A DNA stretch of 64,000 bases from Polyangium spumosum (GCF_009649845.1 NZ_WJIE01000004.1:620001-684000); one strand, 5' to 3'. Positions 7,240-13,798 are shown, numbered from the stretch's first letter. Notes: generated by a model from the letters alone, not told the origin. Made by a program: numbers and translations.

Positions 7240-7960
7240 ATGACGAGCCCCATGCAGAACGCAGCGCCGTGGGACGTGATCGTGATCGGCGGCGGGCCTG
7301 CGGGCTCGTCCGTCGCGACCTACCTCGCTCGGGAGGGGCGGCGCGTGCTCTTGCTCGAGCGGGAGCGGTTCCCGCGGGAGCACATCGGCGAGTCGCTCTT
7401 GCCGGGCGTCTTGCCGTACCTCGACGCGCTCGGCGCGCGCGAGGACGTGGAGAACGCGGGCTTCGAGCGCAAGGAGGGACAAACCTTCGTCTGGGCCGGG
7501 ATCGTACGCCGTGGGAGATCGACTTCCGCGAGCTCGACGTACACCCGTACGCGTACTTCGTGGACCGGGCGCGCTTCGACGAGATCCTCCTGGTCGTACC
7601 GCGCGCGTCGCCTCTCGGGGCCGGGGATCTTGCTCGCGGGGGACGCGGCCTGCTTCATCGATCCGATCCTCTCGACGGTTTTGCGACGTCTGGCTCCGGC
7701 CCGAGCGCGCGCGGGATGGCCGCCTCCTCGGCGAGGTGCCCGAGGCTGCGCGCCTCGTCGCCGACGCGTGCCGCGTGATCTGGGAGGCGACGCGGTCGGC
7801 GGCGACGCTCTCCGCGGCCTTCGCGGCGGCCGAGGCGGCGCTCCGGGGCCTCGAGCCGGCGGGGTACACGTTCGAGATCTCGGGTCGGCTCGGGATCACG
7901 GAGGATGGAGAGCCCGACCCGGCTGCGACGAGCGCCACGGCGAGCGCCACGATCGGTTGA
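7240..7960 (+). pseudogene. Remnant of an FAD-dependent halogenase/oxidoreductase
   Basis: The N-terminus is intact: ATG at 7240, then IVIGGGPAGSSVATYLA and the GESLLPG motif seen in tryptophan-halogenase-like flavoproteins. After KEGQTFVW (about 7497) the reading shifts to another frame that continues RTPWEIDFREL and FVDRARFDEILL. It then returns to the first frame for ILLAGDAACFIDPIL (about 7620-7670) and moves to the third frame for the C-terminal helices ending near 7960. The roughly 200 residues normally lying between FDEILL and LLAGDAA are missing. At least two frameshifts plus a large internal deletion mean it cannot make a working enzyme. The fold is clear; the original substrate is not. 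Confidence 0.8.
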
Positions 7961-8029: not shown

Positions 8030-8410
8030 ATGGCGATCACGTGCAGGGAAGAAGCGATGCGGTGGGTGCATCGGTATGCGATCGGCGGCGCGGCCTTCGC
8101 GGCGCTCCCGCTGCCGATCTCCACGAGCGCGGGCCTCGCCGCCCTCGAGGTCCACATGTTCAACTTCATCGGCGGCGTCTACGGCGAGTCCGTGGGCAAC
8201 CTGGCGAGCCTCGCGGCGGGCGGCGGGCTCGAGGTGATGGGCGCGGGCCTCAAGTTCGTCGCCACGCGCGCCGTCTCGTTCGTGCCCGGGCCCGTGGGCA
8301 TCGTCGTCCGGGCGAGCATCGCCGCGGTGGTGATCGAGACCCTCGGCCGCGCGATCATCGGACATTTCGAGCGCAAGCACCCCGGGAGGCTCTTTTCGCC
8401 CGCGGCTTAG
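8030..8410 (+). CDS. Small DUF697-like membrane-associated protein
   Basis: Up to 126 residues, with two long hydrophobic, Gly/Ala-rich stretches (AAFAALPLPISTSAGLAALE and a second VPGPVGIVVRASIAAVVIE). The segment LPLPISTSAGLAALEVHMFNFIGGVYG resembles the DUF697/YcjF-type domain (P-P-[IG]-D/S...Q/H-M...IA..YG). The more likely start is the ATG at 8057, preceded by GGGAAGAAG. It lies directly before the radical SAM pair on the same strand and may be co-transcribed with it. Role unknown. Confidence 0.6.
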   Translation: MAITCREEAMRWVHRYAIGGAAFAALPLPISTSAGLAALEVHMFNFIGGVYGESVGNLASLAAGGGLEVMGAGLKFVATRAVSFVPGPVGIVVRASIAAVVIETLGRAIIGHFERKHPGRLFSPAA

Positions 8411-8428: not shown

Positions 8429-10243
8429 GTGAAGGCGCTGATCAAAGTCGGCTACGCGTGCAACGAGAACTGCACGTTCTGCCACACCGCCGACATCCGG
8501 CACCTCGACGACACGGCCGAGCGGGTCGAGTGGAAGATCGACCGCGCCAAGCGGCTCGGCGCCTCGATGGTCGTCCTCTCCGGCGGCGAGCCCACGATGC
8601 GGCCCGAGCTCTCGCGCTGGGCGCGCCGCATCGCCGCGCACGGCCTCGATTTCGGTCTCGTCACGAACGGCCTGATGCTCTCCTACCCGCACGTCGTCGA
8701 CGAGCTCGTGGGCGAGTGCCGCCTCCGGTACGTCTACATGTCCCTGCACGGCGGCGAGCCCAAGGTGCACGGCTCCGTCGTCCGCGCCGACACGTTCCAC
8801 AAGGCCATGCAGGCCATCGAGAACCTGCACGGCCGGATCCCGGATCTCACGATCAACTGCGTCGTGACGACGGCGAACCTGAAGCACCTCCGAGGCCTCG
8901 TCGATCGGCTGCTCCCGCTCCCGGAGCTCTGCATCAAGCTCTCGATGACGCAGCCGAAGGGCGCGGCGAACCGCGCCTTCGACGTCATCGTGCCCGACGT
9001 CGCCGCCTGCGCCGCCCGCGTGAAAGAGGCCATCGAGCACGGGCTTTCGCGCCGGAGCGAGCGCGGGCCCCGCTTCGCGCACGACGGCCTGCCGTTTTGC
9101 CTGCTGCCCGGCCTCGAGCACCTCTACGACGACCTCAAGACGCACCGGTACGCCACGATGATCGAGGCCGACGAGGACGACTTCGTCCCCGTCGACGACG
9201 TGGCCAAGATCCAGCCCGAGGAGACCTGCGGCGACTGCGCGCTGCGCGGCGCGTGCCCGGGGCTGTATCGTGGTTACTTCGAGGTCCACGGCGCGAGCGC
9301 GCTCCGGCCCGTCACGGATCGCCCGCGGGCGAACTCGTACAACTTCGTCCCCGAGCGCGACATCGCGCGCCCGCCCGGCGCGCCTTGCCCGGTCCGCGCG
9401 GACGGCACGAGCCCCTACGATCGCGGCCGCACCTTGTTCTTGCGCCTCAAGGATCGCATGCGCCTCTTCCGCACCGAGACGCGTGATTTCTCCGACGAGG
9501 AGCTGCTCGGCTTCAAGGAAGGCGCCGGCCAGGTCTACCTCGACGTCTCGACGAAGCTCGCCCCGGATGACTTCGCGAAGGACTTACGGAAGTTGCGCCC
9601 CTCCGCCGAGTGTGAGGCTTGCCCCGAGCGCCCGCGTTGCACCGGCGCGTGGGAGCCCGTGCCCGTCGACGTCTTCACGCGCGACGATCGCGCCGTGCTC
9701 GACATGCTCGCGGAGCTCTCGGGGCGCGTGCTGGATCTCGGCTGCGGCGAGGGCCCGTACCTCGACGCGCTCGCGCGGCGCGCGGCGGAAGGGCACATCG
9801 AGTACGTCGGCGTGGATCCGGATCCGCAGCGGCTCGCCGTGCTCGCGTCGCGCCATCCGTTCGCGCGTTTCGTGGTCGGCCGCGCGGAGGAGCTCGGCGA
9901 GGAGCTCGGCACGTTCGACCACGTGCTCGTGCTCCGCAGCGTGAACCACCTCGAAGATCCGGCGCGCGCGTTCGGCGCGGCGATCACGCGGCTCCGGCCC
10001 GGGGGCACGCTCACGCTCGTGGACAACGTGGCGTTTGGGCTCGTGCGCAGCCGCGCGCACGCGGCCCGCGCGGAGGCCGCGCCCGGAAACCGGTTCGAGC
10101 ATTACCGCAACGACGACGCGGCGCGGGCCGCGCGGCGCCTCGAAGGCGAGCCCTTGCGCCTCCTCGAGCGCCGCGACGTCGGCCGCGCGACCAGCAACCA
10201 GTGGATGTTACGCTACGAGCGTTTGGTAGAGGTGCCATCGTGA
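8429..10243 (+). CDS. Radical SAM protein fused to a C-terminal SAM methyltransferase
   Basis: This 604-residue protein has the radical SAM cluster motif C-x3-C-x2-C at C11, C15 and C18 and SAM-binding GGEPT at residues 52-56. TNGLMLSY and MSLHGG follow, typical of MoaA/PqqE-like enzymes. Two further cysteine groups, CGDCALRGAC (about 266) and CEACPERPRC (about 394), suggest auxiliary Fe-S clusters. Residues about 425-590 form a class I methyltransferase (VLDLGCGEGPYLDAL, then GVDPDP, HVLVLRSVNHLED, LRPGGTL). The start is GTG. The stop overlaps the next radical SAM gene by four bases (GTGA). No precursor peptide was found nearby, so the substrate may be a peptide or a small molecule. The domain calls are firm; the reaction is unknown. 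Confidence 0.85.
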   Translation: MKALIKVGYACNENCTFCHTADIRHLDDTAERVEWKIDRAKRLGASMVVLSGGEPTMRPELSRWARRIAAHGLDFGLVTNGLMLSYPHVVDELVGECRLRYVYMSLHGGEPKVHGSVVRADTFHKAMQAIENLHGRIPDLTINCVVTTANLKHLRGLVDRLLPLPELCIKLSMTQPKGAANRAFDVIVPDVAACAARVKEAIEHGLSRRSERGPRFAHDGLPFCLLPGLEHLYDDLKTHRYATMIEADEDDFVPVDDVAKIQPEETCGDCALRGACPGLYRGYFEVHGASALRPVTDRPRANSYNFVPERDIARPPGAPCPVRADGTSPYDRGRTLFLRLKDRMRLFRTETRDFSDEELLGFKEGAGQVYLDVSTKLAPDDFAKDLRKLRPSAECEACPERPRCTGAWEPVPVDVFTRDDRAVLDMLAELSGRVLDLGCGEGPYLDALARRAAEGHIEYVGVDPDPQRLAVLASRHPFARFVVGRAEELGEELGTFDHVLVLRSVNHLEDPARAFGAAITRLRPGGTLTLVDNVAFGLVRSRAHAARAEAAPGNRFEHYRNDDAARAARRLEGEPLRLLERRDVGRATSNQWMLRYERLVEVPS

Positions 10244-11937
10244 CTGCTCCCGCCCCTCGACGACTCCCGATCGCCCCGGCGCAAGCGGAGACGGCGTTCG
10301 CCGACTTCCAGAACGAGGCCCTGCTCGCGGGCGCCGAGGGCGAGGGCAAGACGCTCGCGCACGAGGCGGCCGCGCACGAGAAGCGCAACTGGGTGCGCCT
10401 CTCCTACGACTGCAACAACCACTGCACGTTTTGCCTCGACTCGAACGCGCACGACGGCACGATGCGCGCGACGCAGGACATCAAGGTGCAGATCGTCGAG
10501 GGCCGCAGGCGCGGCGCCGATCGCCTGATCCTCTCGGGCGGCGAGCCGACGATGCACCCGAACTTCCTCGACTTCGTGAAGCTCGGTCGCCTCGCCGGGT
10601 ACCGGAAGGTCCAGACCGTGACGAACGGTCGCATGTTCCGCTACCCCGACTTCCTCGAGAAGGCCGCGGACAACGGGCTGCACGAGATCACCTTCTCTCT
10701 GCACGGCCACACGGCGAAGCTGCACGACGCGCTCGTCGGCACGCCCGGCGCGTTCGTCGAGGAGGTCGCGGGGCTGAAAGCCGCGCTCGCGTCGGAGAGG
10801 TTCATCGTCAACGTCGACATCGTCATCAACAAGCAGAACGTCCGGCACCTGCCGGAGATGCTCTCGACGTTCATCGGTTGGGGCGTGAAGGAGTTCGACC
10901 TGCTCCACGTGATCCCCTTCGGCAACGCGTGGAGCGACGCGCGGCACCACCTCTTCTACGACCTCGACGGCAACCTCGAGTACCTCCAGCAGGCCTTCGC
11001 GTACGCGCGCCGGCCCGACATCCACATCTGGCTGAACCGCTTCCCACCCCCGTACGCCGAGGGGTTCGAGGATCTCATCCAGGATCCTTACAAGCTGAAC
11101 GACGAGGTCCGCGGGCGGCGCGAGGAGTTCGATCGGTACCTCTCGCTCGGCAAGAAGCTCATGTGCCGCGAGCCCGAGCGGTGCAAGTACTGCTACCTCG
11201 AGAGCCTCTGCGACACGCTCGACGAGGTGATCGACGTGCGCAAGGCCGAGGAGGTCGACGTCCTGCGTTACGCCGGCGAGCCGCCGCGCGCGGGCAAGCT
11301 GCCCGAGGCGCGCGTGGCGCGGATCGTCGCGACGAACCTCGCGGAGGCCGCGGCGCTCGCGGCGAAGGCGGCGCCGGGCGCGATCACGCTCGAGCTCGCG
11401 TCGTACGAAGGTTTGTCGGGAGCGCTCTCGCCGGAGGGCCAGCTCTTCGGCAAGCAGCTCGTGGCTTGTTACACGGACGATCCCGCCGCGATCGAGCCCT
11501 TGCTCGGGATCGCTGGCCCCTTCGAGGTGCGCGCCTTCCTCACGAAGGCGACGGAAGCCGTGATCCGGAGGCTCGAGCCGCCGCCGAAGAACCTCGTGCT
11601 CGTCCAGAAAAACTACGACCTCGTCTCGGACGCCCACGCGAACGACGTCGACACGAAATCGTTTTTCGCGACGTACCCCCACATGATCCCGGTGGAGAAC
11701 GTGCCCGCGTGCCTGGCGGGCCGGCCCGTGCGGACGGCGCCGCGGACGCTGGATCTCGCGATGCTCGGCGCGGACGCGCGGATCGACATGACGGAGTTCA
11801 CGAAGCGGTACGTGGCCGACGGCTTCTACACGAAGGCGCTCCGCTGCAAGGACTGCCGCGAGAACGCCTCCTGCCGGGGCGTGCACGTGAACTGGGTTCG
11901 CGCCCACGGGTTCGGGGCGCTCGAGCCGATGGGGTAG
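10240..11937 (+). CDS. Second radical SAM protein with unknown C-terminal half
   Basis: A 565-residue protein starting GTG in a GTGA overlap with the preceding gene. The cluster motif is C58-x3-C62-x2-C65 (CNNHCTFC), with SGGEPTMH near residue 98, TNGRMF and SLHGHT. A cysteine group CREPERCKYCYLESLC near 308-323 resembles a SPASM/twitch-like auxiliary site. Residues about 335-530 match no domain I recognise. The end carries CKDCRENASCRGVHVNW (about 537-553), another possible Fe-S or metal site. The tight coupling with the rSAM-methyltransferase strongly suggests both act on the same substrate. A palindrome terminates the unit shortly after the stop. Confidence 0.85.
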   Translation: MTAPAPRRLPIAPAQAETAFADFQNEALLAGAEGEGKTLAHEAAAHEKRNWVRLSYDCNNHCTFCLDSNAHDGTMRATQDIKVQIVEGRRRGADRLILSGGEPTMHPNFLDFVKLGRLAGYRKVQTVTNGRMFRYPDFLEKAADNGLHEITFSLHGHTAKLHDALVGTPGAFVEEVAGLKAALASERFIVNVDIVINKQNVRHLPEMLSTFIGWGVKEFDLLHVIPFGNAWSDARHHLFYDLDGNLEYLQQAFAYARRPDIHIWLNRFPPPYAEGFEDLIQDPYKLNDEVRGRREEFDRYLSLGKKLMCREPERCKYCYLESLCDTLDEVIDVRKAEEVDVLRYAGEPPRAGKLPEARVARIVATNLAEAAALAAKAAPGAITLELASYEGLSGALSPEGQLFGKQLVACYTDDPAAIEPLLGIAGPFEVRAFLTKATEAVIRRLEPPPKNLVLVQKNYDLVSDAHANDVDTKSFFATYPHMIPVENVPACLAGRPVRTAPRTLDLAMLGADARIDMTEFTKRYVADGFYTKALRCKDCRENASCRGVHVNWVRAHGFGALEPMG

Positions 11938-12802: not shown

Positions 12803-13798
12803 ATGAGAGCGAGCCTCCCGCGCGCCCGGATTCTCGGCACTGGCCGCTACCTGCCCGCCCGCGTCGTGACGAACGACGAGCTCGCCGCGCGCGTCGGCAC
12901 CTCGGACGCCTGGCTCAAGGAGCACGTCGGCGTCGAGCGCCGTCACGTCGCAGCCGAAGGCGAGACGACGAGCGACATGGCCACGGCCGCGGCGCGCGCG
13001 GCGCTCGACGCGGCCCGGCTCTCGCCTGCGGATCTCGACCTCATCATCGTCGCGACCGTGAGCGGCGACAGCCCCATGCCGGCCACCGCGGCCACGGTCC
13101 AGCAGAAGCTCGGCACCGAGCTCGTCCCGTCCTTCGACCTCGCCGCCTCACACGCGGGTTTCCTCTACGGGCTCGCCGTGGCGGAGCAGTCGATCGCCTC
13201 GGGCGCGACGCGGACGGCGCTCGTGGTCGGCGCGGACATGCTCTCGCGCCGCGTGGATCCCGAGGATCGGACGACGGCGGCGCTCTTCGGCGACGGCGCG
13301 GGCGCGGTGGTGGTCGGCGTGGCGGGCGACGACGGGCGCGGGATCCTGTCGATGCGCCTCGGCGCCGACGGCGCGATGGCCTCGTTGCTCTCGATCCCGG
13401 GCGGCGGCACGGGCGAGCCGATGACGCCCGAGCGGCTCGCGGCGAAGCGGAACAAGATCCAGATGGACGGGCCCGACCTGTTCCAGGTCAGCGTGAAGAA
13501 GCTCCAGGTCACGAGCATGGAGGCGCTGAAGGCGGCGGGCCTGCTCTCGGACAAACTCGACTGGGTGATCCCGCAGCAGGCGAACCGGAGGATCGTGGAC
13601 AAGATCGCCGCGCGGCTCGGCTACTCGCGTGAAAAGTTCATCGAGAACCTCGCCGACGTGGGCAACACGGGCGCGGGGTCGATCCCGATCGCGCTCGACG
13701 AGGCGGTGCGGGATGGCCGCGTGAAGCCCGGGCAAAACGTGCTTTTGTGCGCGCTCGGCGCGGGCGTCACGTGGGCGGCGTCGATGGTGAGGATGTAG
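12803..13798 (+). CDS. FabH-fold (ketosynthase III-like) protein lacking catalytic Cys and His
   Basis: A 331-residue protein with full FabH architecture: ARILGTGRYLPARVVTN, GVERRHVA, LIIVATVSGD, LFGDGAGAVVV and NTGAGSIP near the end. In FabH the catalytic triad is Cys-His-Asn. Here the Cys position (DxxxxCxGF) is His117 (DLAASHAGF). The His of PHQAN is Gln258 (PQQAN). Only Asn288 remains. Both changes were read directly from the codons (cac, cag). The fold and cofactor-binding parts are otherwise well preserved, and there are no frameshifts. Decarboxylative condensation by the usual mechanism is unlikely; acyl transfer or a binding role is possible. It follows the radical SAM genes but is separated from them by a divergent gene. 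Confidence 0.88.
   Translation: MRASLPRARILGTGRYLPARVVTNDELAARVGTSDAWLKEHVGVERRHVAAEGETTSDMATAAARAALDAARLSPADLDLIIVATVSGDSPMPATAATVQQKLGTELVPSFDLAASHAGFLYGLAVAEQSIASGATRTALVVGADMLSRRVDPEDRTTAALFGDGAGAVVVGVAGDDGRGILSMRLGADGAMASLLSIPGGGTGEPMTPERLAAKRNKIQMDGPDLFQVSVKKLQVTSMEALKAAGLLSDKLDWVIPQQANRRIVDKIAARLGYSREKFIENLADVGNTGAGSIPIALDEAVRDGRVKPGQNVLLCALGAGVTWAASMVRM

Follow-up and report, generated by a model that had tools for sequence, protein, structure and literature searches.

Within a 64,000-nucleotide stretch of the Polyangium spumosum genome (GCF_009649845.1, NZ_WJIE01000004.1:620001-684000; referred to as the window), two overlapping genes, here called rSAM1 and rSAM2, encode radical S-adenosylmethionine (SAM) enzymes, the first of which also harbors a methyltransferase. 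We propose, with a probability of about 0.72, that the two proteins are accessory maturases of a protein- or peptide-modifying system of Myxococcota that employs multiple radical SAM enzymes, is dispersed over the genome and constitutes a variant of the His-Xaa-Ser (Hxs) system. In this organism (genome G000, 10.8 Mb, with contigs C1, C6 and C12 among those discussed below), the core of the system is located on C6 and the enzyme HxsC4 on C12.

The classical system, HxsABCD, was reportedly described by Haft and Basu in 2011. It is cited in PMC9062424, and Hxs-type systems have been predicted in silico. In the open literature searched, no paper on the chemistry of Hxs-type systems was found; only PMC9062424 and a genome report dealt with Hxs.

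Association of the gene pair with Hxs-type families

A set of 59 related genomes, 30 with and 29 without the family HxsD_rel, was used to define the distribution of the pair. All 30 HxsD_rel-containing genomes have an orthologue of rSAM2 (called at E below 1e-90, with a wide gap down to the next radical SAM enzymes), as do 2 of the 29 without HxsD_rel, while rSAM1, either complete or represented by one half, is present in 29/30 and 0/29, respectively. With one genome per genus, the fractions are 25/25 for rSAM2 and 24/25 for rSAM1 (Fisher p below 1e-12, uncorrected for phylogeny). The two genes are also linked to each other, as had been suggested in a first-pass annotation made from the sequence alone: of the 32 genomes containing rSAM2, 29 also have rSAM1. 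HxsC4 and HxsD_rel accompany the pair in nearly all relatives and, across the order, HxsD, HxsD_rel, HxsB and HxsC4 track the pair. HxsB alone fails to predict its presence, and three genomes with classical Hxs loci (G023, G024 and G041) lack HxsD_rel, rSAM1, rSAM2 and HxsC4, which argues that the pair belongs to an Hxs variant and not to the classical system.

In a number of relatives this association is seen in the gene order. A metagenome-assembled genome (MAG) of Nannocystaceae (locus L158) carries the run rSAM1-HxsD-HxsD_rel-HxsB with three four-base overlaps, where the three Hxs proteins all score over their NCBIfam cut-offs. The order HxsD-HxsD_rel-(methyltransferase half of rSAM1) is found in G011, G018, G025 and G032, with rSAM2 adjacent, or nearby in G018; the full order in G025 (L153) is HxsD, HxsD_rel, methyltransferase half, rSAM2. 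In G021 the order is HxsD-HxsD_rel-HxsB-rSAM2, and HxsB, HxsD, rSAM1 and rSAM2 share one locus in L191 and in an Elusimicrobia MAG (L176).

The pair itself is translationally coupled through a GTGA overlap, in agreement with the first-pass annotation, and the same four-base overlap is seen in 8 of 12 relatives checked (G001, G003, G004, G005, G034, G036, G011 and G025); in the last two the partner of rSAM2 is the methyltransferase half of rSAM1 only. Furthermore, the radical SAM half of rSAM1 is fused to rSAM2 in a single open reading frame (ORF) in G020 and G027, and in G019 both match one 835-residue frame, i.e., the fusions span three genera. The coupling and the natural fusions would be explained by joint action of the two enzymes, probably in a complex.

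In P. spumosum, HxsB and HxsD are found over their NCBIfam cut-offs outside the window, together with HxsD_rel and HxsC4 (Table 1). Beside the C6 core are a MopE-repeat protein (c37), a 284-residue HxsC-like radical SAM enzyme (rS284), a protein of the family c38 and a ClpB paralogue, and a tandem radical SAM protein is encoded at C6:597317-599671. The genome thus contains at least six radical SAM genes of the types found in the system (rSAM1, rSAM2, HxsB, HxsC4, rS284 and the tandem protein). With partners on C6 and C12, the pair appears to be a detached portion of a system whose genes occupy several loci. The first-pass annotation had seen no precursor peptide, and we also found none in the window; the dispersal of the system, with partner genes on other contigs, would explain its absence.

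HxsB, HxsD, HxsC4 and HxsD_rel are already named families. What makes the variant new is the pair, its coupling to these families, the fusions, a conserved tail on HxsD and the absence of HxsA. Relative to the classical system, it also has HxsD_rel as an extra component, several HxsC paralogues, dispersed genes and no His-Xaa-Ser repeats.

Several observations weigh against this interpretation. The best NCBIfam profile for both proteins is HxsC4, closely followed by HxsC, but the scores are below the cut-offs in all cases (HxsC4, NF038332, 87 bits for rSAM1 and 120.5 for rSAM2, cut-off 500; HxsC, TIGR03977, 58.6 and 89.3 bits, cut-off 267.9). The genomes G044 and G055 contain rSAM2 without HxsD_rel, and G035 contains the core without rSAM1. 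No HxsA match (TIGR03979) over the cut-off was found in the P. spumosum genome, where a single weak match on C1 is far from the core, and no His-Xaa-Ser repeats were found near the core; HxsA was consequently dropped as a candidate substrate in this genome. In Polyangium the pair is physically unlinked to the core. Finally, among 48 distant loci with rSAM2, HxsB or HxsD is found in the fetched stretch of only 16, and the distant loci are mostly MAG contigs. Any partner of the system is found in 34 of the 48, many of the contigs being short.

In the L175-L190 set, relatives of rSAM2 accompany HxsB/HxsD in Elusimicrobia and Verrucomicrobia MAGs, and those in Omnitrophota and Cloacimonadota MAGs are found with other HxsC-like genes. 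A wide distribution or horizontal transfer of rSAM2 relatives is possible, with MAG contamination as a possible alternative source.

Architecture of the two enzymes

Both proteins score above the Pfam Radical_SAM cut-off of 29.5 bits (rSAM1 79.9, rSAM2 61.5) and contain the CX3CX2C motif, which, for rSAM2, is joined by a predicted model and fold matches consistent with the partial triosephosphate isomerase (TIM) barrel of the superfamily. In a small tree they group with HxsC-type enzymes, away from HxsB, and form separate, fully supported clades distinct from HxsC4. In orthologue alignments (14 orthologues for each protein), the CX3CX2C motifs, the auxiliary cysteine triplets and the methyltransferase motif I residues show no variation. 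The invariant CX2CX5C triplets in both proteins suggest the C-terminal auxiliary cysteine motifs of SPASM/twitch enzymes, a group of radical SAM barrel proteins that includes the maturases SkfB, SuiB and PqqE of ribosomally synthesized and post-translationally modified peptides (RiPPs). The pair differs from these maturases in that rSAM2 has a second, degenerate half and rSAM1 is fused to a methyltransferase.

The first cysteine triplet of rSAM1 is twitch-like by its pattern. The second module (residues ~293-604) is composed of a cysteine-containing linker and a class I methyltransferase; the linker, which holds the second triplet, aligns to the region of the protein's own first triplet (hhalign, E 2e-5). 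Residues 423-563 align with Methyltransf_23 (57.7 bits), and motif I of the Rossmann-fold domain (VLDLGCGEG, at about 9728-9748) has D436, G438 and G440 invariant among orthologues, which bears out the earlier assignment of a class I methyltransferase at the end of the first gene. The two modules can occur apart from each other, the linker-methyltransferase half as a stand-alone gene in G011, G018, G025 and G032 and the radical SAM half in the fusions with rSAM2 described above. The predicted model of rSAM1 is of moderate quality (pLDDT 76, pTM 0.56; poor around the CX3CX2C motif), and the fold searches were based on the model of rSAM2.

The AlphaFold model of rSAM2 is confident (pLDDT 88.9, pTM 0.86) and matches the radical SAM proteins SkfB, BlsE, SuiB and viperins, with structural Z values of 16.7-19.7 against SPASM/twitch RiPP maturases, among which SkfB and SuiB belong to the best folds. 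An anti-phage (viperin) function was dropped, as the PADLOC matches are generic superfamily scores (42-50 bits). The long C-terminal region, labelled unknown in the first-pass annotation, has zero Pfam matches, and in the whole-model search it gave no fold beyond known radical SAM proteins. However, profile alignments place it near the second half of HxsC-type enzymes: it aligns to residues 125-291 of rSAM1, i.e., the second half of its radical SAM domain (hhalign probability 71, E 3.8e-5), and to the tail of HxsC4 (probability 88, E 3.2e-6). Because of these alignments, the region, which ends in the invariant triplet C536, C539 and C545, appears to be a degenerate second half-barrel of the HxsC type and not a novel domain.

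Proposed function and alternatives

For the type of substrate, the order of steps, the chemistry and the role of HxsD as substrate carrier, we infer the following scheme. HxsD-type proteins would most likely bind a substrate protein made by the ribosome and present it for radical modification at several sites by HxsB and the HxsC-type enzymes, including rSAM2 and the radical SAM half of rSAM1. The methyltransferase half of rSAM1 may then methylate a group created by the radical chemistry. Candidate substrates are c38, the MopE-repeat protein and the HxsD tail. A bolder formulation, which we regard as tentative and as having somewhat less than an even chance of being right, is that of a dispersed system with multiple radical SAM enzymes that occurs in Myxococcota as well as in MAGs from Elusimicrobia and further phyla. 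In this formulation, the HxsD with its tail would either carry the substrate or be the substrate itself, and the coupled rSAM1-rSAM2 pair would introduce radical crosslinks or methyl groups into a secreted protein; the heavily modified ribosomal product would then represent a new class.

One version of the proposed scheme, possible yet doubtful, names as substrate either the small, probably secreted proteins of family c38 or the MopE-repeat protein (c37), both encoded beside the C6 core. The c38 proteins have a twin-arginine translocation (Tat)-like signal in several relatives and a conserved NxGDG...T.E..GL region. Their genes immediately precede HxsD-HxsD_rel-HxsB in L173 and L174, and HxsD-HxsB in L201, which is the place of HxsA in the classical locus, but homology to HxsA was not detected (hhalign probability 0.2; c38 was dropped as an HxsA homologue), HxS repeats are lacking, and c38 often adjoins its own HxsC-like enzyme, rS284, instead of the pair. 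The ClpB paralogue (L125, 14636-17260), which scores 930 bits and thus falls below the ClpB cut-off of 1232, adjoins c38 in several genera.

In the variant, HxsD has a C-terminal extension ending in F[ED]DPLGIAMSWE[ED]KY, which is missing from the classical HxsD of relatives and retained by the HxsD of the Nannocystaceae MAG (FDDPLGIAQSWEDKY). The extension may serve for docking or as a site of modification. In a second version of the scheme, which we consider unlikely, the tail is itself the core modified by rSAM1, rSAM2 and the other radical SAM enzymes, such that HxsD would be a fusion of carrier and precursor. This possibility is suggested by the near-invariance of the tail across families, including its Trp and Tyr, by its absence from the classical HxsD of congeners, and by the position of the HxsD gene, which adjoins rSAM1 in L158 and is close to the methyltransferase half in several relatives. 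A docking tail would, however, explain the conservation equally well; more distant variants retain only DDPL...W, and the tail has neither a recognisable protease site nor core-like variability. No significant sequence match in the PDB relates HxsD to a solved protein of the PqqD or RiPP recognition element (RRE) type, and this relationship was dropped.

The first-pass annotation had placed the pair in an unusual specialised-metabolism or cofactor pathway together with two neighbours, a broken flavin halogenase upstream and a catalytically altered FabH-like protein downstream. Both neighbours are real. Three congeners have an intact halogenase of 724-751 residues, with an extra C-terminal region, and two congeners lack the gene; in the window it is disrupted by two large internal deletions and by frame changes. 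Inspection of the FabH-like ORF showed His in place of the active-site Cys (FDLAASHAGF) and Gln in place of the catalytic His (VIPQQAN), with the Asn kept, and the gene is under purifying selection (ratio of nonsynonymous to synonymous substitution rates, dN/dS, 0.12-0.15). Outside the genus, the two genes accompany the pair in no more than one or two near genera. Because neither tracks the pair across the order, they are treated as probably incidental and were dropped as pathway partners. An unusual, uncharacterised pathway with linked genes thus stands, while its tie to the halogenase and FabH is unsupported.

It is improbable, in our judgment, that the two enzymes belong to a pathway for a small molecule or a cofactor, in which BlsE-like or MoaA-like chemistry would be followed by O-, N- or C-methylation and the FabH-like protein or halogenase would supply or tailor the substrate. 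The cytosylglucuronate decarboxylase BlsE, a nucleoside decarboxylase, is indeed the closest solved relative by sequence (best PDB match, E 1e-16 for rSAM2), but the BlsE profile score is 70.4 bits against a cut-off of 400, the genomic context is another and the pair has extra domains. Similarly, G008, G038 and G050 have halogenase-type flavoproteins close to rSAM2 or to Hxs-like loci, and conservation of the altered FabH extends from the genus to G034 and G036; yet the tight co-occurrence and the operons involve HxsD, HxsD_rel, HxsB and HxsC4, not FabH or the halogenase, the latter being decayed here and missing from two congeners.

Both genes of the pair are under purifying selection in the genus Polyangium, with dN/dS values against five congeners of 0.14-0.21 for rSAM1 and 0.11-0.19 for rSAM2, similar to those of neighbouring genes; with intact reading frames and with the catalytic and auxiliary cysteines and methyltransferase motif I kept, both enzymes look functional. 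For this reason the earlier suggestion of a remnant, i.e., a decaying pair that does not work in this genome, which might be prompted by the separation from the core and the pseudogene upstream, is contradicted and was dropped as very improbable.

Table 1. Features of the window (positions counted from its first nucleotide) and partner genes elsewhere in the genome (positions on contigs)
Feature	Position	Strand	Remarks
Halogenase-like gene, flavin adenine dinucleotide (FAD)-dependent, decayed	7252..7960	+	tblastn of intact congener proteins; Trp_halogenase in congener copy
117-residue hydrophobic protein	8057..8410	+	18 bases upstream of rSAM1; kept in genus and G036 only
rSAM1	8429..10243	+	604 residues; HxsC-type radical SAM domain (1-~290) fused to second module (~293-604)
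CX3CX2C motif of rSAM1 (C11, C15, C18)	8459..8482	+	invariant in orthologue alignment
First auxiliary Cys triplet of rSAM1 (C267, C270, C276)	9227..9256	+	invariant in orthologue alignment
Second auxiliary Cys triplet of rSAM1 (C395, C398, C404)	9611..9640	+	directly precedes methyltransferase; invariant in two alignments
Class I SAM-dependent methyltransferase domain of rSAM1	9689..10240	+	Methyltransf_23/25/11 over cut-offs
GTGA overlap	10240..10243	+	rSAM2 start codon and rSAM1 stop codon, read from sequence
rSAM2	10240..11937	+	565 residues, GTG start; HxsC-type radical SAM enzyme, long C-terminal region
CX3CX2C motif of rSAM2 (C58, C62, C65)	10411..10434	+	invariant in two alignments
Auxiliary cysteines of rSAM2 (C309, C315, C318, C324)	11164..11211	+	invariant in two alignments
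C-terminal region of rSAM2	11242..11874	+	resembles HxsC-type second half, without CX3CX2C
FabH-family protein	12803-13798		full-length family member
HxsB	C6:142787-144298		TIGR03978, 550 bits, cut-off 370
HxsD	C6:144537-145022		TIGR03976, 60.3 bits, cut-off 50
HxsD_rel	within C6:142787-145022		NF038315, 75.9 bits, cut-off 41
HxsC4	contig C12		NF038332, 599.5 bits, cut-off 500

The small gene immediately upstream of rSAM1 is present as annotated in the first pass, but its product resembles DUF697 only weakly (14.3 bits, cut-off 27.7; E 0.034). The same genome has another cluster of radical SAM genes (L110-L111, G000 C6:797000-821605), where oxygenase-like and carbamoyltransferase-like proteins were identified by eye. 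In G050, G038 and G048 (L069-L071, L072-L073 and L075-L076, respectively), islands of tens of kilobases contain many radical SAM genes around HxsB/HxsD, and a tandem radical SAM ORF of 1439 residues is found in such islands of order-level relatives.

Implications for Hxs-type systems

In the interpretation favored here, the pair marks a larger Hxs variant that is spread through an order and operates without an HxS-repeat substrate, and the natural fusions indicate which of its enzymes work together. The compact operon of L158 offers a testable four-gene starting set. More generally, a radical SAM operon that appears to be "precursor-less" can represent a single piece of a pathway whose genes are dispersed, and genome mining based on gene clusters would overlook such a pathway.

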